This document shows, piece by piece, positions 3,790-33,806 of a stretch of DNA of 64,000 nucleotides. Source of the DNA: Phytoseiulus persimilis (lineage: Eukaryota > Arthropoda > Arachnida > Mesostigmata > Phytoseiidae); the NCBI GenBank assembly GCA_037576195.1, contig CM075103.1, positions 35,114,723-35,178,722 of the forward strand. The letters are read 5' to 3'. Every line of letters starts with the position of its first letter. Position 1 is the first letter of the stretch. Position numbers and translations under genes: made by a program. The notes under the pieces were generated by a model. That model saw only the letters and a list, made by a program, of their open reading frames with translations, was not told where the DNA came from and ran no database searches.

Positions 3790-4893
3790 TCATCTAAGGA
3801 AGATGAAATCCGCCGAGTGGGCTCCGTTCGTGTTCAGCTGGCTTGGAGCGTTGACCTCATCCTCCATCTCGACGGCGTCTTCGTTCTGCAACATGATTTC
3901 CATGAGGGATTCAGCTCCTTCGCAAAACTGTGACTCGACGGAGCCCTCTCGATTGAAACTGAGAACGCAGAGCTCACGTGTGGAATACGCACCTTAGACG
4001 CGTCCCGTGTCACCGACACGACTCTCGTGGGGATGCGGACGATCTGGAGGAAGCGATCCATGATCTTGGCTTCTTCTTCCTTCGTCGTGGGCCGAGCGCA
4101 GTACTGCAGCAGTTGCTGCAAAGAGCACGGGCTCCGACAGCATTCGTCGACGATGCCGACTTCTCTCGGTCTGAGTCGCCGCTCGAACGAGCCCAGAGCT
4201 GCGAACGAGAATCGACGTTGGGTTACGCAAATGAAGAACACCCTCCGACGCAGAAGTTCCTCGCACAATTCCTCGATTCCAGTCCCAGCGCTGAGAAGCG
4301 TTTGAAAACAACGTTCTCGCGACCACTCGGTCAACACCAATCTTCCCCGCGTGAAGAGGCCCTCACTGGGCGACACAGATTGGAACGAGTCACGGACCCT
4401 CGACAGTAGATCGCGTCTAACAATTGTCGCCGCCGTGCATCTGTTTCGCCTCCCGTCACCGGAGACGATACACACAGAATCCAAGGTGCTCATTTGGACT
4501 CAGATACGTGGTGACGCTGTTGAGCTACAAACGAGGCAATAAATGGCGTGAACATCCACCCAATTGATCCACAGGTGTAGGAGCTGTGACAGCAGTCCGC
4601 GGGAGCATATAGCGCACCCGCTCGAGGATTGGCTTCCTGGGACGGAATCTCCTCAGTTTCACATCCCGACCGAGTTCACGATTTGAAGACTCACCTCGTT
4701 CCGATCTACGCTGCACTCGTTGGTTGAGGCCACCGACGAAGTTACAGAGGTTAATGGTCAGATCCGACAGCTTCTTCCCGCACATGCGGACTCGCCGTCC
4801 CTCTGAATCCGACGCCCCGCTCCATTCCGGCAGTAGAACTTGCAGCACGCAAAGCAGCAAGCAAAGCGACCAGCGGTTACAAGTGGACGTCAT
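3790..4893 (-). CDS. Insulin-like peptide precursor, copy 1 (intact, 3 coding exons)
   Basis: A secreted hormone of the insulin/IGF family. Predicted exons (minus): 4897-4695 with ATG 4893-4891, 4198-3993, and 3927-3790 (stop 3792-3790), giving 180 aa. Exon 2 follows CTTACAG, ends GAACGAG/GTGAGT in phase 1, and encodes a hydrophobic signal peptide (LCLLLCVLQVLLP) and the B-chain pattern MCGKKLSDLTINLC (Cys-x11-Cys, residues 38 and 50). Exon 3 follows TTCGCAG and encodes the A chain at 4157-4098: GIVDECC, RSPC, then SLQQLLQYC, with the CC-x3-C-x8-C spacing. A short basic C-peptide links the chains. An 80-residue extension follows the A chain, split by a 65-nt phase-0 intron (3992-3928). Intron 2 is about 430 bp shorter than in the other copies. 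No disabling change is seen. Receptor and exact subfamily are not known. Confidence 0.88.
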
Positions 4894-4897
4894 CTTG

Positions 4898-5170
4898 CTG
4901 TAAGTGATAAAAAATATTTCCGTTAGTTTCGAGCGAGCACTCGATCTGTCTCAGCGATGCTGCTTCGGGATTCCCCGGCTAGGGAGGCCAACGAGGTGGA
5001 ACTCCGTTTTCTTCTGAGAGCGAGGCCGCGTGAAGGCTGATCTCTGCGGACGATTTGTTCGGGCATCCGCTACGGGACGAGAAACCGCGTTTTCTCACAA
5101 ACGGATTCAGCTCTCCCTCTGAGCCGCCGATCAGTGGAACTCACCCGGGAGGATGATCCACCGGCTGCCA
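4898..5170 (-). other. Intron 1 / 5' region of ILP copy 1 shared with all copies
   Basis: Immediately upstream of the coding exon, this stretch is homologous to 13270-13549, 23510-23787 and 32140-32404. It includes the ATCACTTACAG acceptor and the CTCGCTGGCAGCCG boundary, beyond which copies 1 and 2 differ from copies 3 and 4. No other gene is seen. Confidence 0.6.
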
Positions 5171-5595
5171 GCGAGACCTGTTCTTCTAGTTAGAGGCCGG
5201 TTCAGGAAGACGACGCCCCTAGCGCCGGCCTGTAGTCGGTATGAAGCGCAGTGAGACGCAAAGCTTATCGTTGTCAAACGCGAAACTGGCTGGGCGAGGG
5301 GATTCGGCGAGAAGGAGAAGTCGTTTGTCCGCTTCACACGATCCCATGGAGGAAATGTGAAGGATTCGGCGGATCTTGCCACAATTGGTCCAACGACGCG
5401 GCACCATTTAGTTATCATTGTTTATATATCGCAGGGACGCACCTCCAGCCGTTATCCTTCTTTGCACCTTCTCCTCTCGGTCGTGACGTGCACCATGCCG
5501 CCTTCACTCGTCTGCCGGCAGACCGCTTCCACTATTCGCTACGGCTGGCCAGACACTACAAAATTATAGGAGAACTAGCCGGCCTTCGGGAGTCG
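5171..5595 (-). repeat. Upstream segment shared only by ILP copies 1 and 2 (copy 1 version)
   Basis: This is inverted relative to, and homologous with, 12870-13270. It replaces the exon-1/promoter-proximal sequence found before copies 3 and 4. It contains TATATAAA on the minus strand (5428-5421), a possible alternative TATA box about 530 nt before the coding exon. No TATAAAAG/exon-1 block was found for copy 1. Whether this segment provides a substitute promoter cannot be told from sequence alone. Confidence 0.6.
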
Positions 5596-5600
5596 CCACC

Positions 5601-7567
5601 GATTCTCGGAATCACTGGAATCACCCCTGCAGGTTTTGGAAAGTACGGTCAGATTGGTCTCGGGATCACACCTCGAGACTTGGGAAAGTATGGTTAGATT
5701 GGTCCCGGAATCACCCCTCCAAACTTGGGAAGTAATAATCAGATTGGTCTCGGAATCACGCCTCCAGAATTGGGTGAGGATGGTCAGATTGGTTCCGGAA
5801 TCACCCCTCCAGAATTGGGTGAGGATGGTCAGGTTGATCCCGGAATCACCCCTCCAGACTCAGAAGAGTATGGTTAGATTGGTGTCGGAATCACCCCTCC
5901 AGACTTGGGAGAGGATGGTCAGATTGGTTCCGGAATCACCCCTCCAGACTTGGGAGAGGATGGTCAGATTGGTCCCGGAATCACCCCTGCAGGTTTTGGA
6001 AAGTACGGTCAGATTGGTCTCGGAATAACCTCTCCAGGTTTTGAGGACTTTGGACAGATTGGCCTCGAAATCAACCCTCGAGACTTGGGAAAGTATGGTC
6101 AGACTGATCCCGAAATAACGCCTCCAAATTTGGGAAGTAATGGTCAGATGGGTCTTGAAATCACGGCTCCAGACTCGGAAAAGTATGTTCAGATTGATCC
6201 CGGGATAACCCCTCCAGGTCTTGAAAAGTACGGTCAGATTCGTCTCGGAATCACCCCTCCAGACTTGGAAAAGTATGTTCAGGTTGATCCCGGAATCACC
6301 CCTCCAGACTCAGAAGAGTATGGTTAGATTGGTGTCGGAATCACCCCTCCAGACTTGGGAGAGGATGGTCAGATTGGTTCCGGAATCACCCCTCCAGAAT
6401 TGGGTGAGGATGGTCAGATTGGTTCCGGAATCACCCCTCCAGAATTGGGTGAGGATGGTCAGGTTGATCCCGGAATCACCCCTCCAGACTCAGAAGAGTA
6501 TGGTTAGATTGGTGTCGGAATCACCCCTCCAGACTTGGGAGAGGATGGTCAGATTGGTTCCGGAATCACCCCTCCAGACTTGGGGGAGGATGGTCAGATT
6601 GGTCCCGGAATCACCCCTGCAGGTTTTGGAAAGTACGGTCAGATTGGTCTCGGAATAACCTCTCCAGGTTTTGAGGACTTTGGACAGATTGGCCTCGAAA
6701 TCAACCCTCGAGACTTGGGAAAGTATGGTCAGACTGATCCCGAAATAACGCCTCCAAATTTGGGAAGTAATGGTCAGATGGGTCTTGAAATCACGGCTCC
6801 AGACTCGGAAAAGTATGTTCAGATTGATCCCGGGATAACCCCTCCAGGTCTTGAAAAGTACGGTCAGATTCGTCTCGGAATCACCCCTCCAGACCCGGAA
6901 AAGTCTTCTCAGACTGGTCTCGGAATCACCCCTCCAGACCCGGAAAAGTCTTCTCAGACTGGTCTCGGAATCACCCCTCCAGACCCGGAAAAGTCTTCTC
7001 AGACTGGTCTCGGAATCACCCCTCCAGACCCGGAAAAGTCTTCTCAGACTGGTCTCGGAATCACCCCTCCAGAGTTGAGAAGTAATGGTCAGATTGGTCC
7101 CGGAATCACCCCTGCAGGTTTTGAAAAGTACGGTCAGATTGGTCTCGGAATCACCCCTCCAACTTCTGAAAAAAACGGTCAGATTGGCCTCGGAATCAAC
7201 CCTCGAGACTTGGAAAAGTATGGTCAGATTATTCCCGCAATAACGCCTCCAAATTCGGGAAGTAATGGTCAGATGGGTCTCGGAATCACGCCTCCAGACT
7301 TGGAAAGGTATGTTCAGATTGATCCCGGAATCACCCCTCCAGACTCGGAAGAGAATGGTTACATTGGTGTCGGAATCACCCCTCCAGACTTGGGGGAGGA
7401 TGGTCAGATTGGTCTCGGAATAACCTCTCCAGGTTTCGAGAAGTATGGTCAGATTGGTCCCGGAATCACCCCTCCAAACTTGGGAAGTAATGAGAGGCTG
7501 AGGTTGTTCAGCCGGAAAACAAAGGTTTCGAGAAATATGGACAGATTGGTCCCGGAATCACCCCGTC
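5601..7567 (+). repeat. 45-bp minisatellite, array 2 (about 44 units)
   Basis: Same 45-bp family as array 1. A 14-unit block (630 bp) is repeated: the stretch from 5905 recurs from 6535 nearly unchanged. Units at about 6886-7066 are four essentially identical copies of a variant with CCGGAAAAGTCTTCTCAGAC, a sign of very recent local expansion. In-frame TAGs at 5697, 5875, 6325 and 6505 interrupt the reading frames that are open elsewhere. The array precedes the hAT-like segment, as in the later units. Confidence 0.95.
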
Positions 7568-7599
7568 CTGAAGGCTTCCCTTGAGGGGGTAACCTCGAT

Positions 7600-8200
7600 G
7601 AAAGTCCCAAATCCATCGACAATGCGCAAGGGTTACGCTCCGTCTGTTTCCGACGACACCGCAAGGCTGTCGGAACGTCAAAGATTTGGATCTCTATCGA
7701 TGAAACGACGATTAAAACGGGGCGAACCGTAGCCAATGTTGAGGAGGGCGCTTCGAGAAACGTCGAGTTTGGCGGAAGCTACCTTCTGATGTGTGAAGCT
7801 GTGGATTCTTCGAATACCACATCCGTTGCGCACGTCTCCGTGAAATCATTGGAGTTGTTGTGGGATGGCGAGACCCACTAAGAGCGAGTCCTTGTCTATG
7901 TTACAGACGCCGCGCGTTACCTGACGAAAGCAGGCCGCGGCCTCAAGGTTCTATTCCCTCGAATGATCCACGAAAATTGGCGAATCTCCCGGAGGAGCTC
8001 AGGCCTGTTCTCGAAAAATTCGACAACTAGGTAAACAGCATCGACAGAGCTATGCAAAAATGCGAGATTTCATGAGGGGAACCCGGGAGACGGTGTAACG
8101 GGATTATCCACGGAAGTCGTTCTGCTACTCAAATTCGCGCCAATCGTGTCCTGTGAACTCGAGCAACCTTCTCCCAGAACAAATCCATTCTGCGAGCCAC
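7600..8200 (+). pseudogene. hAT-family transposase relic, internally deleted (unit I)
   Basis: Translation shows pieces typical of the hAT transposases annotated as CGGBP1-like in arthropods: KIWISIDETT, GSYLLMCEAVDSS, VTDAARYL, and KVLFPRMIH. A change of frame is followed by KLANLPEELRPV and finally KFAPIVSCELEQPSP, which resembles the hAT dimerisation motif CDVERSFS. The zinc finger, the catalytic middle (after KVLFPRMIH) and most of the C-terminal half are missing, and stops are present. The same deleted form occurs at 16735-17310 and 27240-27810, so the deletion predates duplication of the ILP unit. Confidence 0.6.
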
Positions 8201-10590
8201 TGGACAGTCTTTCCTGTCTGACAATCTGAAGCCTTCGGTTGCGGGGGCTTGTAACCAGCCTTCTAATTAAAGAAACCTTGTACATATCTCTCTGAATATT
8301 TGGGCTGATTTTTTCTCAGTTATTTCATGCATATTCTCAGTTATTTCATGCATATTTTTCCCAGCCCTAGTGATTAGGAGTCTTGAGTCGTACACCCTGG
8401 CTGATGAATATTATCATGTTCGATGGATTCATTCAGCTTTCACGAGGGGAAGTCGTGGAGTGCGACGCATCGACTCCAATGCGCTGGCGTTGATTTCGTC
8501 GGACAATTATCATCTCAAACGAGCCGTGCCACGGAATCTTTCATAAAACTTTTCAGAGGATGAGACTTCCCAGGGTCGATTTCAAGATAACAAGATGTCT
8601 GAAACCACTGTGTTCTCTCCGAGAATCACAGAACTATCGGTTGGAATAAAGTCCAAAGTTATCGCTGAATGACTGCCTCAATAGTCAACTCTGAGAACTT
8701 TTCTGCCCATCTCTGGTTTGTTCAGAAGTTTTCGACTCAAGGACGGAATCCAGAAGCATTCTCTGCACTGCTCTTCAAGTTTCCATACTGTAGCAGCGAT
8801 AATAGTTTTTTTCTGACATAACTCGACGCCAAAGGCAATCGTGAAACGATGGGGCCCATGTGACAACGCATCTCAGCTGTCAGACAGTCGATTCCGAGAT
8901 TCATATGTGTCTTATCAGGGGAAGTGACATATCAGCTGGATACCCGTCTGTGTGGTTTAATATCCGTTCCGAGTCTATTATTGGATTCTCAAACAAAAGT
9001 GTCTCGGGAGAAGGGGCCCAAGATACACAGCTCGGGGGAGCAAAAATCGAGCTTATATTGCGAACGAACTTCGTAATCCCCTCCTGGGGCTTTTCCCATC
9101 GGTCACAAACACGAGAGCATCGCGATCAAGGTGCTCGTCCGCGGCGAATTTCAGGGCCCATTCCCCACACCGCGCTTAGAGATCTTCTGATCACCACAAC
9201 GAGGTAATCTTCTCGTGTTCAATCGGAAATGAAGCTCACCTCCTTCCGAGAAGTCATCCTTTCTCTTAACCGGGCTGGAGCACGGTCATTGTTCCATAGA
9301 GCTAGCAATAATAACCATCTCAACGATGTTGTGGAGTGTTATCGCTTCTTCAGAGATCCGTTCTTGGACGAGAGAACTGTTGCCGTTAGTGTAGTTTCCA
9401 AAGCTGAGACTAATACATTGGGACGCGGTCACAGTTGTCGTTGGACATCTCGAGCAACATCTTTCTGGAATCCAAACGACTCACTGGCGAACGAGGCTGT
9501 GTCTCGCCTGCCACAAGATGGCATGATGGGCCGAATTGTCTCGACTCCTTGGAGAATAGGATAGGCATCTCCGGATGGATGTCAAACCCAACGGGGAACG
9601 GGCCGAATCTTCTGGTTTTGTGCGCTTTCCCAACTGTGTCTGATAGATTAGCTGTAACTGGGGGAATGAGTTGAGTTTAGTTCCATGGTATCGCCCGAGG
9701 CAGAAACGCAGCCTCCCTGAATCGGGACGAGAGCAAGTTTCGGGGAACATGTGTGCAAGCTGGAAGAGCTTTCTCACGTTCCGACGGGGCCTATGCATGA
9801 GTTTGAGGAGAGAGGAAATAACAACGGAAGAGATGCTCGCCGTGTTTGGTATCAACTGCCAAGGCTGGAGGCACCCAAATCAACGAATGAGCGCAGAGCT
9901 AACGGATGGAGCAGAACGGAACAGTGGCGTGTTGGTCTTGGACTCGTCATGTGTCCTCGTGTCATTGCGGGATCATGCGAACCGTATCTTCGAGCTTCGA
10001 AGAGCCGGGAGAAAATTAACGAAAAATTTATCTGCACTCTTAACGGATTCGCTATTGGTACCGATAGTTCATGCTTCAACATCGAGTCGTGTCCAAATCA
10101 TCGAAGAACCCGATCCGTGAGATCGATCCGTATTCTCGAGCGTTGCTGTCCTCAAAAGTCCACAAGATCGAAAATGGCGGCTGGGATCCCCGCATCAAAA
10201 GAGGCTGTCGTCGATCGGTTGTGGAGTCCCCGTTCTGCAGGAATGATTATTGTATCCGGGGCCCCCTCACTGGACCTGCCGAGAGCTGGCTATCCTGCTG
10301 GAATCGGTGAAAGTGAAAGAGTAAATCTGAACATCTCGGGAGAATCGCGGAGGATTGCTCGGGGAACACCGGGATGTTGGGACTGGGACGCCGCGATCAA
10401 TCTGATGAAGTGACGAATGAAGCCCTCGGAGATACTTGGAGCAGTCGAAAGTCCGCTACAAACAAATGCGGTTTATTTCGAAGTTTTCTTGTTCCGGGAG
10501 CTCCGTCTGCGCTCTGAAGCAGTAGTATTCAGATGGTTCGGGGAGGGAATCAGCGAGGGCACGAAGAGCTTTACACACATCCGGCGCTTT
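8200..10590. repeat. 5' flank of the ILP unit, unit I
   Basis: Homologous to 20930-23105 and 27810-31728 (minus the mariner insert). It contains a direct repeat TCTCAGTTATTTCATGCATA at about 8316-8357. Overlapping open frames at 9481-9855 (minus, 124 codons) and 9671-10120 (plus) are kept in all units but match no family I recognise. Relative to unit II, about 170 bp are missing near 10160. No gene can be supported here. Confidence 0.6.
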
Positions 10591-10594
10591 CTGC

Positions 10595-10602
10595 TATAAA
10601 AG
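10595..10602 (+). promoter_or_regulatory. TATA box and non-coding exon 1 upstream of ILP copy 2
   Basis: TATAAAAG at 10595-10602 is followed, after a predicted start near 10626, by an exon that ends GCGAAA at 10677 before the donor GTGAGT (10678). The block is nearly identical before copies 3 and 4 (23106, 31729). Here the next coding exon is 2.9 kb away (13550) because 11,045-13,270 differs from the other units. It may still drive the copy 2 pseudogene or be orphaned. Confidence 0.55.
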
Positions 10603-11044
10603 GACACAGTCGCGGACCCTGCTTGCAAAGTGTTCGTCTTGTTCTGCCGACCGATCAGACTATCCACCGAAGCGAAAGTGAGTTTGATTCTTACCGTACG
10701 TAACCTCGTATTTTCGAATGCTCTCATGGTGCATGACAATCCGTGATTCGAATTTGAATTCACAGAGCTTTTGTCCACCTGCGTGTTTTCTGGCATTTCA
10801 CGTTTCGGTTAGGTTTTCGTCTCTTTCCCCACGCTTTCTGTGACGCCCATCCTGTCCAGCCTGCAGGGGTCGTTATCATGACCCCTGTGGTGATTCTCCT
10901 TGAGCCCCGTGACCTGGAGAGTCGTCTTCGCTACTTTTGGCGACAATTTTTTTCGTGACGAACAGCTTCGGCTGGGAACGGCAGAGTTGCACGCTTCTGA
11001 AACGCGAGGCAGCCAAGACAAGAGGAATCCGAGACAAAGTGACG

Positions 11045-12870
11045 GTGAACCGTCGGTCAAAAAACGGTGTGCCACGTAACAGGGCCGGCAGTGATTCTCA
11101 TTAGCTTGTACGCACTGCCCTTTGTACCCGTACGACGGCATGCAGTCGTTTCCTCCGTGCGAGCATCGATTCGAGATTATGGAAAAGGGTCTTCACGGCT
11201 CTCTCGACTCGGAAAACCAATCGATCAGTCCTATCAACGTGTAAGAGCCCGATGTTTGTGAGCTTTTCGTGGAGGAACGAATCAGAATACAAAAAATAAT
11301 GGCGTGGTGCTCTTTCGCGGCGTCTAGAAGCGTACTTCCATTGCTTCTTAATTGAACCAACTTTTGAGGGCACGCTGGCTGGCTGGCAGTCTATCAATAG
11401 ATTCATCAGGCGGTCGTCGCTGCGTCCGAACATTGCCCTGTCAGTTGCTCGTAGAGTATGACAGACTGAAACGGGTCGGCTGGTGAGAATCGACTGGTTG
11501 CTTGGTTCAGTGGCTGGTGTGCAGACAGGCATTCATGCCAACCGTCGTCGACGGGAGACAAACAATTATGTTCAATTTCGTTTCGTCGTCTCGAAGCAGC
11601 ATCACCATCACAAACAACAGCAGCTCGAACGGTACCGCTTGTTGATATTTTTGGATGGTGGCGTGTTTCGGATATCGTCACTGAACCACCCTTGTGCAGC
11701 TATGAGCAGAATCTCGATGTATCGAGCGTCGTCGCCCCAATCAGGACATGCTCTTGTTCACCGCGGCTCCAGCTCTTTTCGGAAACACGGTATATATGTA
11801 TATAAGTATATTTTTCTTCACGGTTCCGTGCGTTTCGGAGACCTCATTCTAAGGCTCCCAACGAGAGACCGAACACGAGGTTCGCGAACAACGTCTGGGT
11901 TACGCTCGAGATCAGCGAGCCTCAGAGGATCCTCGCAGCGGCGGAATCCTCATACTGATCTCGTTGACCTGAAGCCTTTCCTCCCTTCGAATTCGGGGGT
12001 CATGCTCGTGGGGTCGATTCATTGGAAACCACGAGTGAGGAAATCATTCCGTTCAGTTTGAGCTCCGACTCCCGATCAAGATCTACGCGAGGCTACGGCG
12101 TTCAGGGAGCTCGGACACCCGCTTGAAGAAGAAAGAATGGCGGGAAGAATGAGTGGCCTCTGTCAGGAAATCAGAGAGAAGCCAACATTTCATGCCGGGG
12201 ATAAGATACGCGTCAAGCCCATTGTGGAACATTTAGAAACACGTGACCAAACGCTCTCCAAATTTAATCTGATGGAGACTCCAAATTGAGTTCACCGGCA
12301 ATCAGCGAGAGCAGAACAGTGGAACCCGCGATCATTAGACCTCAAGATTGCTTTGTTGTCCACGGGATCGCGCTCTGGAGTTTTCTGATCATAGCCATGG
12401 AATGTTTCCCTTGTTAAGGATCGCGGAAGGTGAGCGGCTTCCCGCTCCAAACCGCGGCTCATCACTTGCGGTTCCAACGCTCGTGCATTCCGACCCGCTG
12501 TGCTCGAGGATTCCACTTTGTGGATACAGCACGCACCGTCGACCAATGGGTTCCGTCATCCGCCATTCAAGATTTCGTTCCGACCATGCTGTACTGTATT
12601 TGTAATCGATTGAGACCGAGCGCCTTTGAGAACCCCGATCAAAACTCAGCTCGATTCCCCCATTTCGACAGCATGGAATGGTCACTCGCCCGAGCCCTTC
12701 GCAGGTGGTCGAAGGAGGGTAGTTCTGAGGACGCATTCGCCGCCCGTTGCGATGGGCCGTCCAACTTTCCGTTGGAAGCATGCCCGGGCCTGAGAGCAAT
12801 CGGGACTCAACCTAGAGTCGTGCTGAGCTCGGGAATGGTGGAGCCTCCGTGTCTTTGGGCTTATTCTCCC
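11045..12870. other. Unit-I-specific insert in intron 1
   Basis: This sequence is absent from the other two plus-strand units. I recognise no transposon ends. A 75-codon frame at 12062-12289 (contains HPLEEERMAGRMSGL and HAGDKIRVKP) and a preceding piece near 11862 (NNVWVTLEISEPQRIL) read like eroded coding sequence of unknown family. An A/T tract with TATATA lies at about 11791-11815. Bases 12781-12865 repeat 1860-1945 in inverse orientation. Confidence 0.4.
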
Positions 12871-13270
12871 ATAATTTTGTAGTGCGTGGCCAGCCATAGC
12901 GATCGTAGCGAATAGTGGAATCGGCCTGCTGGCACACGAGAGAAGGCGGCATGGTGCACGTCACGACCGAGAGGAGGCGGTGCAGAGAAAGATAGCGGCC
13001 GGAGGTGCGTCCCTGTGATATATAAACAATGATAATAAAATGGTGCCACGTCGTTGGACCAATTGTGGCACGATGCGCCGAATCCCTCACACTTCCTCCA
13101 TGGGATCTTGTGAAGCGGACGAACGGCCTCTCCTTCTCGCCGAATCCCCTCGCCCAGCCAGTTTCGCGTTTGACAGCTCAAAGCTTTGCGTCTCACTGCG
13201 CTTCATACCGACTGCAGGCCGGCGTTAGGGGTGTCGTCCTCCTGAACCGGCCTCTAACTAGAAGAACAGG
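12870..13270 (+). repeat. Upstream segment shared only by ILP copies 1 and 2 (copy 2 version)
   Basis: Homologous, in opposite orientation, to 5171-5595. It contains TATATAAA at 13019-13026. It joins the common pre-exon region at the CTCGCTGGCAGCCGG boundary. This shared novelty suggests copies 1 and 2 descend from one rearranged ancestor. Confidence 0.6.
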
Positions 13271-13553
13271 TCTCGCTGGCAGCCGGTGGATCACCCTCCC
13301 GGGTGAGTTCCACCGATCGGCGGCTCAGGGAAAGAACTGAATCAGTTTGTGAGAAAACGCGGTTTCTCGTCCCGTAGCGGATGCCCGAACGAATCGTCCG
13401 CAGGGATCAGCCTTCACGCGGCCTCGCTCTCAGAAGAAAACGGATTTCCGCCTCGTTGGCCTCCCTAGCCGGGGAATCCCGAAGCAGCATCGCTGAGACA
13501 GATCGAGTGCTCGCTCGAAACTAACGGAAATATTTTTGATCACTTACAGCAAG

Positions 13554-15032
13554 ATGACGTCCACTTGTAACCGCTGGTCAGTTTTCTTGCTGCTTTGCGT
13601 CCTGCAAGTTCTACTGCCGGAATGGAGCGGGGCGTCGGTATAGAGGGACGGCGAGTCCGGATGTGCGGAAAGAAGCTCTCGGATCTCACCATTAACCTCT
13701 GTAACTTCGTCGGAGGCCTCAACCAACGAGTGCAGCGAAGATCGGAACGAGGTGAGTCTTCAAATCGTGAACTCGGTCGGAATGTGAAACTATGGAGATT
13801 CCCTCCCAGAAAGCTAATCCTCGAGCGGGTGCGCTATATGCTCCCGCGGACTGCTGTCACAGCTCCTACACCTGTGGATCGATTAGGTGGATGTTCACGC
13901 CATTTATTGCCTCGTTTGTAGCTCAATAACGTCACCACGTATCTGAGGCCAAATGAGCACCGTGGATTCTGTGTATCGTCTCCGGTGACGGGAGGCGAAA
14001 CAGATCCACGGCCGCGACAATTGTTAGACGCGATCTACTGTACAGGGTCCGTGACTCGTTCCAATCTGTGTCGCCCAGTGAGGGCCTCTTCACGCGGGGA
14101 AGATTGTTGTTGACCGAGTGGTCGCGAAAACGTTCTTTCCAAACGCTTCTCAACGGTGGGACTGGAATCGAGACCACTTCCGCGACCTGTCTGGGATGAG
14201 CGCCGCCGCGTGGAAGCATCGCCGAGCGAATTCTTTCGATCGATCATCTAGACGGGAATCGGTTCTCGACACAGATGCCTCGGGGATCCGACATGAAGGA
14301 AGCAAAACGCCGATTGTCGCTGGCCATGGTCGATTGAAAACAGTCTTGAGCGAGGACGCTGGAACTCGGATGCAGAATCTTCTCACAGCGTTCGGCCTCG
14401 ATGCTCAAGGCCAGGCCTATGCGCAGGTGTTGCGCGTTCGAGGGATTCTCACGTTGCGCCCGGCTTCCTCGTCTGAGCGGAGGCATGATGACCTCCGAAG
14501 GGCGGCGAAATTGGCTGGACGAACTCCTCGCGGATGTTTCGCCGAATGTTCTGGGCATCGTGCGAGGAACTTCCGCGTCGGAGGGTGTTTTTCGTATGCA
14601 TAACCTAACTTCGATTCTCGTCCGCAGCTCTGGGCTCGTTCGAGCGCCGACTCAGACCGAGAGGAGTCGGCATCGTCGACGAATGCTGTCGGAACCCTTG
14701 CTCTTTGCAGCAGGGCTGCAGTACTGCGCTCGGCCCACGACAAAGGAAGAAGAATCCAAGGTCATGGATCGCTTCCTCCAGGTCATCCGCATCCCAACGA
14801 AAGTAATGTCGGTGACACGGGACGCGTCTAAGGTGCGTATTCCACACGTGAGCTCTGCGTTCTCAGTTTCGATCGAAAGGGCTCCGTCGAGTCACAGTTT
14901 CGCGAAGGAGGTGAATCCCTCATGGAAATCATGTTGCAGAACGAAGACGCCGTCGAGATGGAGGATGAGGTCAACGCTCCAAGCCAGCTGAACACGAACG
15001 GAGCCCACTCGGCGGATTTCATCTTCGCTTGA
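13554..15032 (+). pseudogene. Insulin-like peptide copy 2, frameshifted in both chains
   Basis: The exon plan matches the intact copies: 13550-13751, 14628-14832 and 14898-15032, with the same splice sites. Two single-base deletions disable it. The first, at about 13642, falls between signal peptide and B chain and gives GCG TCG GTA TAG, an immediate stop. The second lies in the A chain (about 14712), where CAGCAACTGCTG has become CAGCAGGGCTG, shifting the frame before the last cysteine. Each exon is therefore 1 nt shorter than its intact counterpart (202 and 205 nt against 203 and 206). The final exon is still open (44 codons, MEIMLQNEDAVEMEDE). A start at 13595 would lack a signal peptide. 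Confidence 0.88.
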
Positions 15033-16290
15033 TGAGGCGCAGAGAGATGCTGCCTCGATAGATGCATATTCGAAGGCCACGATTGGAAGCGGCTGCCTTC
15101 AGGAATTATTTATTCAATTTAGATTCAGTTTCATGTGATATTTAGCGAGGGAAGAGGCGGGCGGGTGGATTTTCGCAGGTTAGGTATTATAGGATAGGTA
15201 ACTCAATTCTTTCAATTGTATCTCTGTTTCTATGCCAGAGCCTGGCCAGAGAGTGATTCCTCTGTGATATAGGTTGATTTCAAGATGAATTCAAATCCAG
15301 AATCTCATGTTGGAGCGGATTCAAACAAACGGTTGACATTCTCGAGGTTCGGCGGATCGTCGGCAATAACGATCGACGACGCCGCTGGAAAGCCCGGAAG
15401 CGTCCGATGTTTTCGGCTACGATGTCAATAAATCAAATTGTGGTGAACAGCCGAATGTGCATCTCACTGAAAGGTGAACCGATACAGGAAACTTCGCTCG
15501 GACTCATCGAGTCCACGGAGCTGAATTTCGATATAGGTATTCCCGACCGGGTCGTTAGTATTCGATGGATGGCCGAAACAGCTCGTGGATCTCTTGATGG
15601 TCAAGAGAGATCGAAGTTTTGAGAACCACGATAACCATCACAAAGAAGACCTAACATCCACGAACGGAACGAAATATCTCTTCCGTCTCTGGCTCCTCCA
15701 CAGACTGAGATTCCCAGCTTCAAGTTTCCAGTAATGATCGTGTTCTCGCGTTCCCCCGAGCTTCCTCTGAAGAGCTTGGTATGACAAGCAGGAACGAGGT
15801 GGCACTGCTTAGAAGTATCATAACTGATAGAAGTATCCGCAATGCCAGTGCAATCATGCCAGATTGCACATGGAAGGAATCCGTCTCGAAGTCGAGTCGG
15901 CTGCTCCTTGGAGCCCACGTTATTCTCTCCTGGTTTTGCTGACACGTTGAGTGTCTCTACGATCGTAGGACCCTCAATGATGCTCGAATATCAGCGGCTC
16001 GGCTTCTGATCTAAAAAAAAAACGTCTGATATCAGTTGAGCCAAATTCCCTCCCATCAATCCATATGCGATACTGGATAGACGGGACCCTGATGACTGAG
16101 TTCATCAGCTCTCTTTGCAATGATGCATGATTCATCGATCTGTGCAGGCATCTATCCATAGATCCATGGATTGATGTGTGTCCGTCGATTTCTCGAACAG
16201 TCTCCAGTAGGACACCTCTTTCAGGATGTATTCGAAGGAGTGACTTGAATCGTCAGAATCACAGAAGACCGATATTTATCGGAGCACCGT
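15033..16290 (+). repeat. 3' flank of ILP copy 2
   Basis: Homologous to the flanks of the other ILP copies. It holds the short frame 15407-15622 (71 codons, starting MFSATMSINQIVV) and an AATAAA at 15427-15432. It ends near ACCGATATTTATCGGA, after which array 3 starts. No further gene is seen. Confidence 0.8.
15407..15622 (+). other. Conserved small open frame, ILP 3' flank, copy 2 (71 codons)
   Basis: Starts MFSATMSINQIVVN and ends GSLDGQERSKF. It is kept open although the neighbouring ILP copy is a pseudogene. Unknown function. See the equivalents at 3203-3403 and 34298-34510. Confidence 0.25.
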
Positions 16291-16299
16291 GGCATCGAA

Positions 16300-16732
16300 C
16301 CCGTGCTCTCAGAATCAGCCCTCCAGATTTGGAAAGTGATGGTCATATCAGTCTCGGAATCATCCCTCCAGAATTGGAGAATAATGGTCAGATTGGTCCC
16401 GGTATCACCTCTCCAGACTCGGAAAGCGATGGTCAGATTGGTGCAGGTATCACCCCTCCAGGTTTTGAAAAGTACTGGTCAGATTGGTCTCGGAATCATG
16501 CCTACAGAGTTGGAAAGTGATGGTCAGATCAGTCTCGGTATCACCCCTCCAGAATTGGAAAGTGATGGTCAGATCAGTCTCGGAATCACTCCTCCAGAGT
16601 TGGAAAGTGATGGTCAGATTGGTCTCGGAATCACCCCTCCAGGTTTTGGAAAGTATGGTCAGATTCGTCTCCGAATCACCCCTGCAGACTCGGAAAGTAA
16701 TGGACAGATTGGTCTCGGAATCACCCCGTCCT
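16300..16732 (+). repeat. 45-bp minisatellite, array 3 (about 10 units)
   Basis: Same unit family. It lies between the 3' flank of ILP copy 2 and the hAT relic of the next unit. Two phases of the repeat remain open over most of it (16303-16734 and 16484-16765). An extra base near 16468 shifts the phase. Confidence 0.95.
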
Positions 16733-16734
16733 GA

Positions 16735-17310
16735 AGGCTCCGTCTGTTTACGACGACACCGCTAGGCTGTGGGAACGTCGTAGATTTGGATCTCTATCGA
16801 TGAGACGACGAATAAAACGGGGCGAATCGTAGCCAATGTGGTGGAGGGCGCTTCGAGAAACACCGAGTTTGGCGGAAGCTACCTTCCGATGCGTGAAGCT
16901 GTGGATTCTTCGGATGCCACATCCGTTGCGCACGTCTCCGTGAAATCATTCGAGTTGGTGTGGGACGGCGAGATCCACTACGAGCGCGTCCTCGTCTTTG
17001 TTACAGACGCCGAACGTTACATGCCGAAAGGTGGCCGCAGCCTCAAGGTTCTATTCCCTCGAATGATCCGCGAAAATTGGCGAATCTTCCACAGGAGCTC
17101 AGGCCTGTTTTCAAAAAAATCGACAACGTGGTAAACAGCAACGACGGTTTCACAGAGCTATGCCGAATGCGAGATTTAATGAGGGGGAACCCGAGAGACA
17201 GTGAAACGAGATTGTCCACGGAAGATGTTCGGTTACACGAATTCGCGCCAATCGTGTCCTGTGAACTCGAGCAACCTTCTCCTAGTACAAATCCATCCAT
17301 TTCAACCAAC
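16735..17310 (+). pseudogene. hAT-family transposase relic, internally deleted (unit II)
   Basis: Second copy of the element seen at 7600-8200. It contains IWISIDETTNKTG, GSYLPMREAVDSS, FVTDAERYM and KVLFPRMI, then in another frame KLANLPEELRPVFKKIDNVV and TELCRMRDLMRGNP, and finally EFAPIVSCELEQPSPS. The same internal deletion is present. Unit homology stops at about 17300, where a 3.6-kb insert begins. Confidence 0.6.
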
Positions 17311-17352
17311 CTTCTAACCAAAAAAAAACTCAGGAACGGTTCAACCTTGGGT

Positions 17353-19619: not shown

Positions 19620-19703
19620 ACAGCCCATCATCGCGAAAACCCATCGTCGCGAGAACCCATCATCGCGAAAACCCCTTTTCGCGAAAACCCATCACCGCGA
19701 CAG
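19620..19703 (+). repeat. Short 16-bp tandem repeat (about 5 units)
   Basis: Consecutive variants of CCATCATCGCGAAAAC, with the TCGCGA core kept in most units. It lies in the unit-II-specific insert. Function is unknown. Confidence 0.7.
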
Positions 19704-23105: not shown

Positions 23106-23113
23106 TATAAAAG
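23106..23113 (+). promoter_or_regulatory. TATA box and exon 1 of ILP copy 3
   Basis: TATAAAAG. The predicted non-coding exon 1 runs from about 23137 to 23188, where GCGAAA meets the donor GTGAGT. Intron 1 (23189-23787) ends in CTTACAG four bases before the ATG. The conserved block upstream (CACATCCGGCGCTTTCTGC) is shared with the other two promoters. Confidence 0.65.
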
Positions 23114-23791
23114 GACACAGTCGCGGACCCTGCTTGCAAAGTGTTCGTCTTGTTCTGCCGACCGATCAGACTATCCACCGAAGCGAAAGTGAGTTTGATT
23201 CTTACCGTACGTAACCTTGTATTTTCGAATGCTGACATGGTGCATGACAATCCGTGATTCGAATTTGAAATCACAGAGCTTTTGTCCACCTGCGTGTACT
23301 CTGGCATTCCACGTTTCGGGTAGGTTTTGGTCCCTTTTCCCACGCTTTCTGTGACGCCCATCCTGTCCAGCCTGTAGGGGTCGTTATCAGGACCCCTATG
23401 GTGATTCTCGTTGAGCCCCGTGACCTGGAGAGTACTCTTCGCTACTTTAGGCGACAATTTTTTTCGTGACAAACAGCTTCCGCTGGGAAAGGCAGAGTTC
23501 AACTCTTCTCTCGCTGGCAGCCGCGGGATCTTCCTCCCGAGTGAGTTCCACTGATCGGCGGCTCAGGATAAGAACTGAATCCGTTTGTGAGAAAACGCGG
23601 TTGCTCGTCCGGTAGCAAATGCCCGAACGAATCGCCCGCAGGGACCAGCCTTCACGCGACCTCGCTCTCAGAAGAATACGGAGTTCCGCCTCGTTGGCCT
23701 CCCCAGCCGGGGAATCCCGAAGCAGCATCGCTGAGACACATCGAGTGCTCGCTCGGAACTGACGGCATTATTTTTGATCACTTACAGCAAG

Positions 23792-25318
23792 ATGACGTCC
23801 GCTTGTAACCGCTGGGCGGTTTGTTTGCTGCTTTGCGTCTTGCAAGTTCTACTACCGGAAAGGAGCGGGGCGTCGGATTTAGAGGGACGGCGAGTCCGGA
23901 TGTGCGGGAAGAAGCTCTCGGATCTAACTATTAACCTCTGTAACTTCGTCGGTGGACTCAACCAACGAGTGCAGCGGAGATCGGAACGAGGTGAGTCTTT
24001 AAATCGAGAACTCGGTCGGAATGTGAAACTGAGGAGATTCCCTCCCAGAAAGCTAATCCTCGAGTTGGTGCGCCGAATGCTCCCGCGGACGGCTGACACA
24101 GCCCCCACACCTGTGGATCGATTAGGTGGATGTTCACGCCATTTATTGCCTCGTTTGTAGCTCAACAACGTCACCACGTATCTGAGGCCAAATGAGCACC
24201 TTGGATTCTGTGTGTATCGTCTCCGGTGACGGGAGGCGAAACAGATGCACGGCGGCGACAATTGTTAGACGTGATCTACTGTCGAGGGTCCGTGACTCGT
24301 TCCAATCTGCGTTGCCCAGTGAGGGCCTCTTCACCCGGGGGAGATTGTTGTTGACCGAGTGGTCGCGAGAACGTTGTTTTCAAACGCTTCTCAGCGCTGG
24401 GACTGGAATCGAGACCACTTCCGCAAGTTTCAAGCGACCTGTCTGGGATGAGCGCCGCCGCGTGGAAGCATCGCCGAGCGAATTCTTTCGATCGATCATC
24501 TAGACGGGAATCGATCTGCGACACAGATGCCTCGGGAATACGAAATGAAGGAAGCACAACGCCAATTGTCGCTGGCCATGGTCGATCGAAAACAGTCCTG
24601 AGCGAGGACGCTGGAGCTCGGATGCAGAATCTCCTCACAGCGTTCGGCCTTGATGCTCAAGGCCAGGCCTATGCGCAGGTGTTGCGCGTTCGAGAGATTC
24701 TCACGTTGTGCCCTCCGATGGGCCACGCCTCGGAGGACGGAACGGCTCCCTCGTCTGAGCGGAGGCACGATGACCTCCGGAGGGCGGCGGAACTGGCCCG
24801 ACGAACTCCTCGCGGATATTTCGCCGAATATTCTGGGCATCGTGCGAGGAACTTCCGCGTCGGAGGGTGTTTCTCGCATGCATAACCTAACTACGATTCT
24901 CGTTCGCAGCTCTGGGCTCGTTCGAGCGCCGTCTCAGACGGAGAGACGTCGGCATCGTCGACGAATGCTGTCGGAACCCTTGCTCTTTGCAGCAACTGCT
25001 GCAGTACTGCGCTCGACCCACGACAAAGGAAGAAGAATCCAAGATAATGGACCGCTTCCTCCAAGTCATCCGCATCCCAACGAAAGTCGTATCGGTGACA
25101 CGGGACGGGTCAAAGGTGCGTATTCCACACGTGAGCTCTGCGTTCTCAGTTTCGATCGAAAGGGCTCCGTCGAGTCACAGCCTCGCAAAGGAGCTAAATC
25201 CCTCATGAAAATCATGTTGCAGAAGGAAGACGCCGTCGAGATAGAGGATGAGGTCAACGCTCCAAGCCAGCTGAACACGAACGGAGCCCACTCGGCGGAT
25301 TTCATCTTCGTTAGATGA
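23792..25318 (+). CDS. Insulin-like peptide precursor, copy 3 (intact, 3 coding exons)
   Basis: Predicted exons: 23788-23990 (ATG 23792, context CAAGATG), 24910-25115 and 25181-25318, 180 aa. Residues 1-28 form a signal peptide (WAVCLLLCVLQVLLP core, cleavage near GAS). B chain: MCGKKLSDLTINLC, Cys 38 and 50. The C-peptide is short, with RR at 62-63 and 73-74 and RRR at 76-78. A chain (24951-25010, residues 81-100): GIVDECC, RNPC, then SLQQLLQYC. The extension 101-180 ends in an acidic exon (KEDAVEIEDEV ... DFIFVR). The B/A split by a phase-1 intron (23991-24909) matches the conserved C-peptide intron of insulin genes. Copies 1, 2 and 4 have RPRE where this one has RRRD, giving copy 3 a stronger basic site before the A chain. 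This is the best candidate for the active gene because promoter, exon 1 and coding exons are all present. Confidence 0.9.
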
Positions 25319-26640: not shown

Positions 26641-26649
26641 TCATGGTTT

Positions 26650-27183
26650 TGAAAAGGATGGTTAGATTGGCCTCCTGATCACCCCTCCAGATTCGGAGAA
26701 GTATGAACGATGGGTCCCGGAATCACCCCCCCAGGGTTGGAAAGTAGTGGTCAGATTGGTCCCGAAATCACCCGTCCAGAGTTGGAAAGTGATGGTCAGA
26801 TTGGTCCCGAAATCACCCGTCCAGAGTTGGAAAGTGATGGTCAGATTGGTCTCGGAATCACCCCTCCAGAGTTGGAAAGTAGTGGTCAGATTGGTCTCAG
26901 AATCACCCGTCCAGAATTGGAAAGTGATGGTCGGATTGGTCTCGGGATCACCCCTCCAGACATGAAAGAGTATGGTCAGATTGGTCTCGGAATCACCCGT
27001 CCAGAGTTGGAATGTGATGGTCAGATTGGTCTCGGAATCACCCCTCCAGACATGAAAGAGTATGGTCAGATTGGTCCCGGAATCACCCCTCCAGAATTGG
27101 AAAGTGATGGTCAGATTGGTCTCGGAATCACTCGTCCAGACATGAAAGAGTATGGTCAGATTGGTCTCGGAATCACCCCGTTC
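26650..27183 (+). repeat. 45-bp minisatellite, array 4 (about 12 units)
   Basis: Same family, with two alternating unit types, one with CCAGAGTTGGAAAGTGATGG and one with CCAGACATGAAAGAGTATGG. The array again separates the ILP 3' flank from the hAT relic of the next unit. Confidence 0.95.
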
Positions 27184-27239
27184 TGAGCAGGTAACCTCGA
27201 TGTAAGTTCCCGATTCATCGATACCGCGCAAGGGTTACG

Positions 27240-27810
27240 CTCCGTCTGTTTACGACGACACCGCAAGGCTGTCGGAACGTCGAATATTTGGATCTCTATC
27301 GATGAGACGACGGATAAAACGGGGCGAATCGTAGCCGATGTTGTGGAGGGCGGTTTGAGAAACACCGAGTTTTGCGGAAGCTACCTTCTGGTGTGTGAAG
27401 CTGTGGATTCTTCGAATGCCATATCCACTGCGCATGTCTCCGTCAAATCATTGGAGTTGTTATGGGATGGCGAGATCCACTACGAGCGCGTCCTTGTCTC
27501 TGTTACAGACGCCGCACGTTACATGACGGGAGCAGGCCGCAGCCTCAAGGTTCTATTCCCTCGACTCCACGAAAATTGGCGAATCTTCCGGAGGAGCTCA
27601 GGCCTGTTCTCAAAAAATTCGACAACGTGGTAAACAGACGGTTTCACAGAGCCATTCCGAATGCGAGATTTCATGAGGGGAACCCGAGAGACGGTGAAAC
27701 GGGGTTGTCCACGGAAGTTGTTCTGCTACTCAAATTCGCGCCAATCGAGTCCTGTGAACTCGAGCAACCTTCTCCCAGTACGAATCCATTCTGCAAGACA
27801 CTAGACAGTC
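27240..27810 (+). pseudogene. hAT-family transposase relic, internally deleted (unit III)
   Basis: Third copy. It contains IWISIDETTDKTGRIVADV, CGSYLLVCEAVDSSNA, SVTDAARYM and KVLFPRLH, then KLANLPEELRPVLKKFDNVV in another frame, then LKFAPIESCELEQPSPS. The deletion and frame break are the same as in units I and II. It lacks the DNA-binding and most of the catalytic region, so it cannot encode transposase. Confidence 0.62.
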
Positions 27811-29926: not shown

Positions 29927-31262
29927 CAGGGTGACCAGCCAAGCTCTTCCAAAGATAATCGATCCCACTCCCGACGAAAAGAGCGCTAAAGGGCGTCTAG
30001 AGTCTTGTGCGGTTTATCGCAGGCCCTCGCTAGTACAACTGACCAAACACTGAACTCCATTGCGTTCAGGTCGGGAGAACACGGAGGACACTCAGAGCAC
30101 GTGATGAAGTCTGGGAAATGCTCTCGACACCACTGCTGAGTTTCCTACGCACGATGAGCGGGTTCGGGATCCTGCTGGAAAGTCCAGCGACCTCCACCGA
30201 AAAGTTTCAGCGCACACGGAGCGACGACTGCTTCCGAAATATCACGGCGGTACACTTCAGCGTCGATTTTCACTCCTGACTGCCTGAAACCGAGGGTGCC
30301 TTGCCTGTGCCACACATTCCGGCCAAACCATGACTGATTGTGGATTTTGGCGGTGCTCAACGATTTGTGAGGTTGAAGGCGGCTCCGAACACCAAATTCG
30401 ATCGGTCTGGCGATTGAGAGACTGTTCGATTGTGAACAACTTCTCGTCAGTGAACGGGATAGTTTCCCATGCCGAACCTTCGGCCCGCTTGGCAATATCA
30501 CGGCATCGCTGCAGTCTTCTACGCTTGTTATCTTCGGTCAGTCGCTGGCCTTTTCTCAGCTTGTAGGCCTCGAGGCCGAGAACATTTTTCGCTATTTGGC
30601 GCACTGATTCGCGTTTGAGGCCAAGCTCACGAGCGATTTTCCGCTTGGATTTCGTTGAAGTCTCTTCTTAAGGATGTCCCGATTCCTGGGACTGTTCACG
30701 ATTGGTTTTCTGCCTCGTCCCGGACGATCTCCATGATGGCCCAGCTCGCGACACCCGTGGATTGCTTTCGATACGGTCGATTTGGGAGCACCAAGCAAAC
30801 GAACTTTGTCACACGGAGCGTGATCCCGCTGGAATAATCCCAAAATCGGGGAACGCTTGCTTGCTATCCTGGAGAAAAAAGATAGGGGTCAAGTTCAGTA
30901 GCTCAACCAGTGGTTCCGTAGGCTTACGTTCCACATCAATCTCATTGACGACCAGTATCATGGATGCGAGCCGCTAACGGCGAAACGGGCGATTCACGCT
31001 ACTCGACAGTGCCGCGAAGCTCAACCCCGGGTGGTTTCAGTTTCGTTGCGGCCAGCTTTCGCCACAACACGTGGACCCTCGCCGGTAGAATGTAAGCCTA
31101 CATTAAAAATGTCAACAACTTGGAGCCCGTACACACGGAGTGAGGGATCGACGGATGGCTTCTGAACTCTGAACGCATCGTCCAAAACTCCGTTGTCCGC
31201 CATGTCACAGCGAGACTTACAGCTCGTTTGAAAAAAAATTCACGTTATCTCTGGTCACCCTG
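29927..31262 (-). mobile_element. Mariner-like DNA transposon, 1,336 bp, with terminal inverted repeats
   Basis: The left end CAGGGTGACCAG (29927-29938) is mirrored by CTGGTCACCCTG at 31251-31262. The uninterrupted site survives in unit II (GAATATTGATGG near 22634), so the target was a TA. The right TA remains (31263-31264), while the left reads TG by mutation. Length and ends fit Tc1/mariner. The element entered after the ILP unit had been duplicated, since units I and II lack it. Confidence 0.9.
29986..30843 (-). pseudogene. Mariner transposase, frameshifted (DD37E-like spacing)
   Basis: Minus strand. The N-terminal helix-turn-helix region reads LLGAPKSTVSKAIHGCRELG, followed by GRGRKP. 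After a frameshift near 30600 comes RQIAKNVLGLEAYKLRKGQ and the first catalytic block PFTDEKLF. After a second shift near 30290 come GVKIDAEVY and the second block FQQDPEPAHRA, an in-frame TAG (30147-30145), then CSPDLNAMEFSVW to the stop at 29986. Counting the stop as one residue, 37 positions separate the second Asp from the Glu of NAME. This is the spacing of DD37D/DD37E families. Inactive. Confidence 0.85.
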
Positions 31263-31728
31263 TATTCATGGAAGGCGAGGGAAATGACCACTACATCTCC
31301 GAGTCCAGAAGATCGAAAATGGCGGATCCCCGCATCAAAAGAGGCCGTCGTCGATCGTTTGTGGAGTCACCGTTCTGCAGGAATGATTATTGTATCCGGG
31401 GTGCCCTCACTGGACCTGCCGCGAGCTGTCTATTCTGCTGGAATCGGTGAAAGTGGAAGAGTAAATCTGAGCATCTTGGGAAGATCGCGGAGGATTGCTC
31501 GGGGAACACCGGGATGTTGGGACGCCGCGATCGATCTGATGAAGTGACGAATGAAGCCCTCGGAGGTACTTGGAGCAGTCGAAAGTCCGCCACAAACAAA
31601 TGCGGTTTATTTCAAAGTTTTCTTGTTTCGGGAGCTCCGTCTGCGCTCTGAGGCAGTAGTATTCAGATGGTTCGGGGAGGGAATCAGCGAGGGCACGAAG
31701 AGCTTTACACACATCCGGCGCTTCCTGC

Positions 31729-31736
31729 TATAAAAG
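31729..31736 (+). promoter_or_regulatory. TATA box and exon 1 of ILP copy 4
   Basis: TATAAAAG. The predicted non-coding exon 1 ends at 31811 before the donor GTGAGT (31812). Intron 1 runs to 32404. The layout and almost all bases match the copy 3 promoter. Confidence 0.65.
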
Positions 31737-32408
31737 GACACAGTCGCGGACCCTGCTTGCAAAGTGTTCGTCTTGTTCTGCCGACCGATCAGACTATCCA
31801 CCGAAGCGAAAGTGAGTTTGATTCTTACCGTACGTAACCTTGTATTTTCGAATGCTCTCATGGTGCATTACAAGCCGTGATTCGAATTTGAAATCACATA
31901 GCTTTTGTCCACCTGCGTGTACTCTGGCATTTCACGTGTCGGGCAGGTTTTCGTCCTCTTCCCCACGCTTTCTGTGACGCCCATCCTGTCCAGCCTGTAG
32001 GGGTCGTTATCATTACCCCTGTGGTGATTCTTGTTGAGCCCCGTGACCTGGAGAGTCGTCTTCGCTACTTTTGGCGACAATTTTTTTCGTGACGAACAGC
32101 TTCGGCTGGGAAAGGCAGAGTTCAACTCTTCTCTCTCGCTGGCAGCCGCGGGATCTCCCTCCCGAGTGAGTTCCACTGATCGGCGGCTCAGGGTAAGAAC
32201 TGAATCCGCTTGTGAGATAACGCGGTTGCCAGTCCCGTAGCGAATGCCCGAACGAATCGTCCGCAGGGATCACGCGACCTCGCTCTCAGAAAAATACGGA
32301 GTTCCGCCTCGTTGGCCTCTCAGTCGGGGAATCCCGAAGCAGAATCGCTGAGACACATCGAGTGCTCGCTCGGAACTAACGGCATTACTTTTGATCATTT
32401 ACAGCAAG

Positions 32409-33806
32409 ATGACGTCTACTTGTAACCGCTGGTCGGTTTGTTTGCTGCTTTGCGTCTTGCAAGTTCTACTACCGGAAAGGAGCGGGGCGTCGGATTTAGA
32501 GGGACGGCGAGTCCGGTTGTGCGGGAAGAAGCTCTCGGATCTGACCATTAACCTCTGTAACTTCGTCGGTGGACTCAACCAACGAGTGCAGCGGAGATCG
32601 GAACGAGGTGAGTCTTCAAATCGTGAACTCGGTCGGAATGTGAAACTGAGGAGATTCTGTCCCAAAAAGCTAATCCTCGAGCGGGTGCGCTCCCGCGGAC
32701 TGCTGCCACAGCTCCTACACCTGTGGATCAATTAGGTGGATGTTCACGCCATTCATTGCCTCGTTTGTAGCTCAACATCGTCACCGCGTATCTGAGGCCA
32801 AATGAGCACCTTGGATTCTGTGTATCGTCTCCGGTGACGGGAGGCGAGACGGATGCACGGCCGCGACAATTGTTAGACGCGATCTACTGTCGAGGGTCCG
32901 TGACTCGTTCCAATCTGTGTCGCCCAAAGAGGGCCTCTTCACGCGGAGAAGATTGTTGTTGACCGAGTGGTCGCGAGAACGTTGTTTTCAAACGCTTCTC
33001 AGCGCTGGGTCTGGAATCGAGACCAATTCCGCAAGTTTCGAGCGACCTGTCTGGGATGAGCGCCGCCGCGTGGAAGCATCGCCGAGCGAATTCTCTCGAT
33101 CGATCATCCAGACGGGAATCGATCCTCGACACAGATGCCTCGGGGATACGAAATGAAGGAAGCAGAACGCCGATTGTCGCTGGCCATGGTCGATTGAAAA
33201 CAGTCTTGAGCGAGGACGCTGGAGCTCGGATGCAGAATCTCCTCACAGCGTTCGGCCTTGATGCCCAAGGCCAGGCCTATGCGCAGGTGTTGCGCGTTCG
33301 AGAGATTCTCACGTTGCGCCCTCCGATGGGCCACGCCTCGGAGGACGGAACGGCTTCCTCGTCTGAGCGGAGGCATGATGACCTCCGGAGGGCGGCGGAA
33401 CTGGTCCGACGAACTCCTCGCGGATATTTCGCCGAATATTCTGGGCATCGTGCGAGGAACTTCCGCGTCGGAGGGTGTTTCTCGCATGCATAACCTAACT
33501 ACGATTCTCGTTCGCAGCTCTGGGCTCGTTCGAGCGCCGTCTCAGACCGAGAGAAGTCGGCATCGTCGACGAATGCTGTCGGAACCCTTGCTCTTTGCAG
33601 CAACTGCTGCAGTACTGCGCTCGGCCCACGACGAAGGAAGAAGAAGCCAAGATAATGGATCGCTTCCTCCAAGTCATCCGCATCCCAACGAAAGTCGTAT
33701 CGGTGACACGGGACGGGTCAAAGGTGCGTATTCCACACGTGAGCTCTGCGTTCTCAGTTTCGATCGAAAGGGCTCCGTCGAGTCACAGCCTCGCAAAGGA
33801 GCTTAA
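32409..33806 (+). CDS. Insulin-like peptide precursor, copy 4 (shortened C-terminal extension)
   Basis: Predicted exons: 32405-32607 (ATG 32409), 33518-33723 and 33789-33806. Signal peptide, B chain (LCGKKLSDLTINLC, Met to Leu before the first Cys) and A chain (33559-33618, GIVDECC then RNPC then SLQQLLQYC) are all intact. In the last exon GCT TAA replaces GCT AAA or GCT GAA, so translation ends after five codons of it. The protein is about 140 aa instead of 180, and the acidic tail is lost. The insulin core should still fold and pair its cysteines, so this could be a functional shorter hormone or an early stage of decay. The splice sites match those of copies 1 and 3. Confidence 0.85.

Follow-up and report, generated by a model that had tools for sequence, protein, structure and literature searches.

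About 38 genes encoding insulin-like peptides (ILPs) are described in the silkmoth Bombyx mori, mostly in two sectors of the genome, mostly intronless and some of them probably pseudogenes (PMC8276055, in the part of that account used here). In spiders, local duplication of genes for the arthropod insulin-like growth factor (aIGF) is known, and the motif definition of aIGF is based on insects (both in portions of PMC7357564). Here, a stretch of 64,000 nucleotides from the phytoseiid mite Phytoseiulus persimilis (assembly GCA_037576195.1, contig CM075103.1, positions 35,114,723 to 35,178,722; hereafter the window, with positions in it prefixed w) was analyzed and found to carry four copies of a split ILP gene, referred to as family 1. 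We read family 1 as secreted hormone precursors of the insulin/insulin-like growth factor (IGF) type, built of signal peptide, B chain, C-peptide, A chain and C-terminal tail, which would owe their recent multiplication to repeated segmental duplications inside a region of about 0.85 Mb on one chromosome, plus one copy on another; the probability of this reading is put at roughly 90%.

The four copies, labelled c04 to c07, were all present where the original prediction, made from the letters of the window, had located them: c04 at w3790-4893 on the reverse strand, and c05 (w13554-15035), c06 (w23137-25318) and c07 (w31760-33806) on the forward strand. The cysteine plan it had described, Cys-x11-Cys in the B chain and GIVDECC with CC-x3-C-x8-C in the A chain, could be read off directly in three copies (c04, c06, c07) and, in c05, within broken frames. 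A search of the joined exons with the Pfam Insulin profile (PF00049, curated cut-off 23 bits), which had been proposed as a check, scored 37 bits for c06 (E 6.9e-9, the match spanning the B and A chains), 37.8 bits for c07 and 35.4 bits for c04. The closest solved structure to c06 in the Protein Data Bank was IGF-I (E 1.1e-4). The match of the window genes to the insulin family is not a chance one. The common exon plan was likewise borne out: in c06 the junction 23990/24910 is in phase 1 and falls inside the C-peptide, the junction 25115/25181 is in phase 0 across an intron of 65 nt, and both fit GT..AG ends and the reading frame. A phase-1 intron in the C-peptide is typical of the insulin/IGF/relaxin superfamily. 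The joined c06 product starts with a hydrophobic N-terminus and continues through the B chain, a C-peptide with many basic sites and the A chain GIVDECCRNPCSLQQLLQYC into a long tail; a hydrophobic N-terminus and RR sites were also recognized by eye in the translations of family 1. The features of the four genes and of the repeat arrays beside them are as follows.

828..1760, no strand: 45-bp minisatellite array 3' of c04, resembling the c06 array
3790..3927, reverse: c04 exon 4, C-terminal extension up to the stop
3993..4198, reverse: c04 exon 3, remaining C-peptide, A chain and tail
4695..4893, reverse: c04 exon 2, signal peptide and B chain
5617..7486, no strand: 45-bp minisatellite array 5' of c04
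10157..10998, forward: c05 promoter/exon-1 segment, separated from the remaining c05 by about 2.3 kb (10999-13270)
13554..13751, forward: c05 exon 2, frameshifted, dead copy
14628..14832, forward: c05 exon 3, frameshifted
14898..15035, forward: c05 exon 4 remnant
16307..16735, no strand: 45-bp minisatellite array 3' of c05, resembling the c06 array
23137..23188, forward: c06 predicted non-coding exon 1, its start guessed from the TATA box; donor GTGAGT at 23189
23792..23990, forward: c06 exon 2, signal peptide and B chain RMCGKKLSDLTINLC, ending in phase 1
24910..25115, forward: c06 exon 3, end of the C-peptide, A chain GIVDECCRNPCSLQQLLQYC and tail
25181..25318, forward: c06 exon 4, C-terminal extension under weak constraint
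26658..27179, no strand: 45-bp minisatellite 3' of c06
31760..31811, forward: c07 predicted non-coding exon 1
32409..32607, forward: c07 exon 2, signal peptide and B chain
33518..33723, forward: c07 exon 3, A chain and tail
33789..33806, forward: c07 exon 4 with early TAA stop
35482..36508, no strand: 45-bp minisatellite array 3' of c07, resembling the c06 array

Two intact copies, one shortened and one dead had been announced, and this largely holds with some refinement. Copy c06 is complete, with a TATAAAA at 23106-23112, about 30 bp ahead of its predicted exon 1, and c05 is dead, carrying frameshifts in exons 2 and 3. The coding part of c04 is intact with a shorter intron 2, and the TATA/exon-1 segment of c06, looked for beside this copy, was not found there; in c07 the early stop affects exon 4 only.

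The genome (181 Mb, mostly in four contigs of 54.7, 52.0, 38.9 and 28.1 Mb) was searched for further copies, C1 to C4 denoting contigs and C3 the chromosome-scale one that carries the window; copy counts from this search are lower bounds. The cluster of four seen in the window turned out to be the part of a larger group: at least 14 A-chain exons of family 1 were found, 13 of them on C3 between 34.715 and 35.567 Mb (at 34.715, 35.113, 35.119, 35.128, 35.138, 35.147, 35.267, 35.277, 35.284, 35.307, 35.313, 35.322 and 35.566 Mb), in both orientations, and one on C2 (7.115 Mb), in addition to three fragments (C1:39.002, C3:14.818 and C3:35.109). Both chains are intact in 11 of the 14 copies, which show Cys-x11-Cys in the B chain and CC-x3-C-x8-C in the A chain; the broken ones are c05, c08, which has an 11-nt deletion and one changed A-chain cysteine, and c12, for which no exon 2 was found. 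Exon 2 measures 199 nt with donor GTGAGT or GTGAGC, the acceptor is CAG, and the phase-1 C-peptide intron has GT..AG ends in the copies that possess exons 2 and 3. The exon-1/TATA segment is full or nearly full at seven places (c01, c05, c06, c07, c10, c13 and c14) and partial at one more, and a separate 5' segment of 423 bp is common to c05 and to c03, c04, c08, c09 and c11.

Selection was assessed on the 11 intact copies (55 pairs), with changes counted on a tree of intron 2 of length 0.325. Ratios of replacement to silent change were 0.05 for the B core, 0.10 for the A chain, 0.31 for the signal peptide, 0.58 for the C-peptide, 0.25 for the exon-3 tail and 0.84 for exon 4. For the A and B chains together, the rate of the intron predicts 31.2 replacement changes, and 4 had occurred (P 1.2e-9); the corresponding observed and expected figures were 15 against 20.4 for the signal peptide, 12 against 16.0 for the C-peptide and 17 against 25.6 for the tail. 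By these counts the hormone chains of family 1 are strongly constrained, and the signal peptide and C-peptide look near-neutral. Silent changes in the A and B codons numbered 20 against 8.8 expected, about twice the intron rate; since they exceed expectation, the conservation of these chains is not simply the outcome of gene conversion or homogenization. An old insulin gene riding along in a repeat family that is itself dead or in neutral drift would account for the three broken copies, the three fragments and the drift of exon 4, but it would not account for about eight times fewer replacement changes in the A and B chains than the intron rate predicts, and we regard it as very improbable. 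Because of this deficit, the intact copies look like working hormones and not debris. The insulin-family identity and the birth and decay of genes that had been put forward for the window are thus both backed by sequence profile, splice frame and selection test. For exon 4, the ratio given above lends no support to constrained coding sequence. An open frame of 176 codons in intron 2 of c06, considered as a hidden exon, was not counted as coding because its ratios were weak in every frame, the best being about 0.6 when the frame is taken in full, and it is absent or broken in several copies.

Intron 2 diverges by 2.8-8.9% (mean 5.5%) among the 11 intact copies, and its tree is weakly resolved apart from the sister pairs c03/c04 (100% support) and c06/c07 (83%), which together suggest a recent and rapid series of duplications, some of them local. 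The same divergence bears on whether haplotypes or expanded repeats were taken for separate genes in the assembly. The region is repeat-rich, and two genes of another ILP family on C2 (family 2, below) are 100% identical over the aligned stretch, as such an artefact would produce; the values among intact copies speak against haplotype duplicates, and the 13 family-1 copies on a single contig lie in both orientations and differ in their 5' segments, and a comparison of 13 copies, 12 from C3, gave 2.8-12.5% divergence in intron 2. An assembly artefact is therefore hardly credible as the source of the family.

Family 1 is not the only ILP family in this genome, a relaxed search with the insulin profile having matched at least 30 places. 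Family 2 comprises a tandem row of nine genes at C2:28.314-28.377 Mb and a group of five at C1:5.318-5.366 Mb, with identities of 90-100%. Their plan is a signal exon, a phase-2 intron just ahead of the first B cysteine, a B/C exon, a phase-1 intron and an A exon; each of the 14 keeps an open frame, the four splice ends and the phase-1 intron, one has an extra B-chain cysteine and four have a stop just past the A chain. The A chain reads CC-x5-C-x8-C, and because the precursor scores 18.2 bits with PF00049, under the Pfam cut-off, assignment to the ILPs rests on the cysteines, the B spacing and the phase-1 intron. Family 3 is represented by seven A-chain exons with CC-x5-C, five of which are interleaved with family 2 in the C1 array (5.316-5.366 Mb for both families) and two of which are on C2, one of this pair with a stop; a single copy modelled by eye has the plan of family 2, the B core C-TMQLHHHMLLV-C and a phase-1 intron. 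The gene at C4:21.018 is a classic insulin gene: a phase-1 intron interrupts its C-peptide, and it lacks a long extension. In a roughly joined form it scores 42 bits with PF00049. A genome search with this rough query found no second copy, and the classic insulin appears to be single-copy. Two genome searches with further ILP queries returned no other strong ILP, only weak matches at C3:4.375 Mb (E 0.17) and C3:20.698 Mb (E 0.4). In total, the four families amount to at least 36 A-chain loci (14+14+7+1), a lower bound since divergent ILPs could escape such searches, and 26 loci have intact chains as modelled (11+14+1, family 3 being left out of this count).

On the receptor side, L-domain matches occurred at two places in the genome, and their translations are two receptor kinases. 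One of them, used as query, matched itself with 654 bits and the next locus with 221 bits at 41% identity (among the best 138 of 208 candidates), and its closest solved relatives are the IGF-1 and insulin receptors (E about 1e-123); the other we take to resemble EGFR by its motifs. On this comparison the genome has one clear insulin receptor gene.

Most likely, the family-1 products would be ordinary secreted insulin/IGF-type hormones that signal through the receptor kinase, the number of copies setting the dose or allowing expression to be divided among them. The C-peptide would be removed at basic sites and the chains joined by the usual three disulfides, and the resulting two-chain hormone would act on the insulin receptor tyrosine kinase. 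With many near-identical ligands and one receptor, the expected effect would be mainly a higher dose, or an expression split by tissue, stage or sex. Alternatively, the peptides may be secreted outwards, in saliva, in seminal fluid or onto eggs, and act on prey or mates instead of serving as internal hormones. Such a use would suit an animal, probably predatory, whose secreted ILPs have multiplied strongly and recently, whose insulin receptor is clear in one gene and whose classic insulin is a gene of its own in single copy. Against it, the chains are under strong constraint and not under positive selection; an outward role in saliva or mating is possible, though we judge it unlikely. A broader proposal, advanced tentatively, is that three ILP families were independently multiplied into arrays in the mite lineage, giving 36 loci or more, no fewer than 26 of them with intact chains, next to one clear receptor and yielding a dose- or sex/stage-specific hormone system or insulins secreted outwards.

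Several observations weigh against the reading of family 1 as a set of working hormones served by one receptor. For seven of the 14 copies (c02, c03, c04, c08, c09, c11 and c12), five of them intact, no exon-1/TATA segment was found nearby, and these may be silent or use another promoter. Over the whole coding part of family 1, replacement divergence is 0.034 against 0.055 for the intron, a moderate constraint. The acceptor AG of exon 4 is lost in c01, c02 and c10, and c07 has its early TAA in exon 4, 40 residues beyond the last A-chain cysteine; as this stop sits past the A chain in a hardly constrained exon, the c07 hormone is probably unharmed. Partial kinase matches of 48-52% identity (again among the best 138 of 208 candidates) would be consistent with a second insulin receptor split over exons.

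Beside each of the four window copies lie smaller arrays of a 45-bp repeat, and these common repeats might promote unequal exchange that makes and removes copies. A larger array of 10 kb, about 225 copies of this same 45-bp repeat, occupies w42498-52616. Open frames of up to 2459 codons run through it because the repeat period is a multiple of three, and they are probably not genes. A LINE-like retrotransposon, in which a zinc-knuckle frame precedes one for endonuclease/reverse transcriptase, is found at w37169-42051, and a PIF1-like helicase fragment at w18397-19134 on the reverse strand, which probably derives from a Helitron-type element. Relative to c06, the 5' flank of c07 contains an insert of about 1.3 kb (w29925-31263) with the look, by eye, of a mariner-type transposon; two of its frames have no Pfam support. 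A tRNA scan over the window found none. Elsewhere in the genome, Hox-type homeoboxes are dispersed over C1, C2, C3 and C4 and not clustered: eleven matches passed the threshold of a homeodomain search, of which four long ones, 90-97% identical to the query, are unlinked and spread over C1, C2 and C4; one more, on C1, is short and broken. This dispersal makes a phytoseiid mite likely as the source. Hox genes are reported as atomized in Metaseiulus occidentalis and clustered in Neoseiulus cucumeris, both with three haploid chromosomes (PMC6902594, in the portion drawn on here), against the four large contigs of this genome; in that paper the word insulin occurs in the reference list alone.

The kind of hormone and the kind of expansion are both known; the place and the extent are new as far as the literature searched goes. 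Among the matches listed in open-licence literature on ILPs in mites, phytoseiids and chelicerates, there was no description of an ILP expansion of this sort in a mite. If the proposal is right, some 36 ILP loci in four families, mostly young, together with one clear receptor would make the reasons for ligand multiplication (dose, timing, sex or outward use) directly testable, and a small, fast-breeding animal would stand beside the silkmoth as a second arthropod case. The genes also illustrate how easily split-exon hormones in repeat-rich DNA are overlooked.

Each of the described systems resembles this one in part. Vertebrate IGF-I and c06 have in common the framework of B and A chains and an extension past the A chain, but family 1 differs in having a C-peptide that carries basic sites and in the nature of its extension. 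The aIGFs and C-terminally extended ILPs of spiders and scorpions, as set out in part of PMC7357564, have a signal-plus-B exon, then a C-peptide-plus-A exon and a long C-terminal extension on one or more further exons, and family 1 has such an extension in its exon 3 tail and exon 4. However, the arginine-rich two-cysteine segment and the GTVxPx(F/Y) motif of aIGF were not seen by eye in the translated family-1 extensions, for which reason family 1 is not filed as aIGF; its last exon is, moreover, hardly constrained. Families 2 and 3 recall, by description, the gonadulins and other divergent arthropod ILPs, in which six cysteines are kept and the insulin profile recognizes the precursors poorly (PMC7357564, same portion), but they differ in their A-chain spacing of CC-x5-C, and their arrays are on different contigs from family 1 or at a great distance from it. 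The known precedent is the bombyxin/ILP expansion of Bombyx mori, with many ILP genes mostly grouped in a few chromosomal sectors, as here, and some probable pseudogenes (PMC8276055, as far as the part used extends); the silkmoth genes mostly have no introns, whereas in the modelled mite genes the C-peptide is still split by its phase-1 intron, and the lineage is a different one, probably chelicerate.

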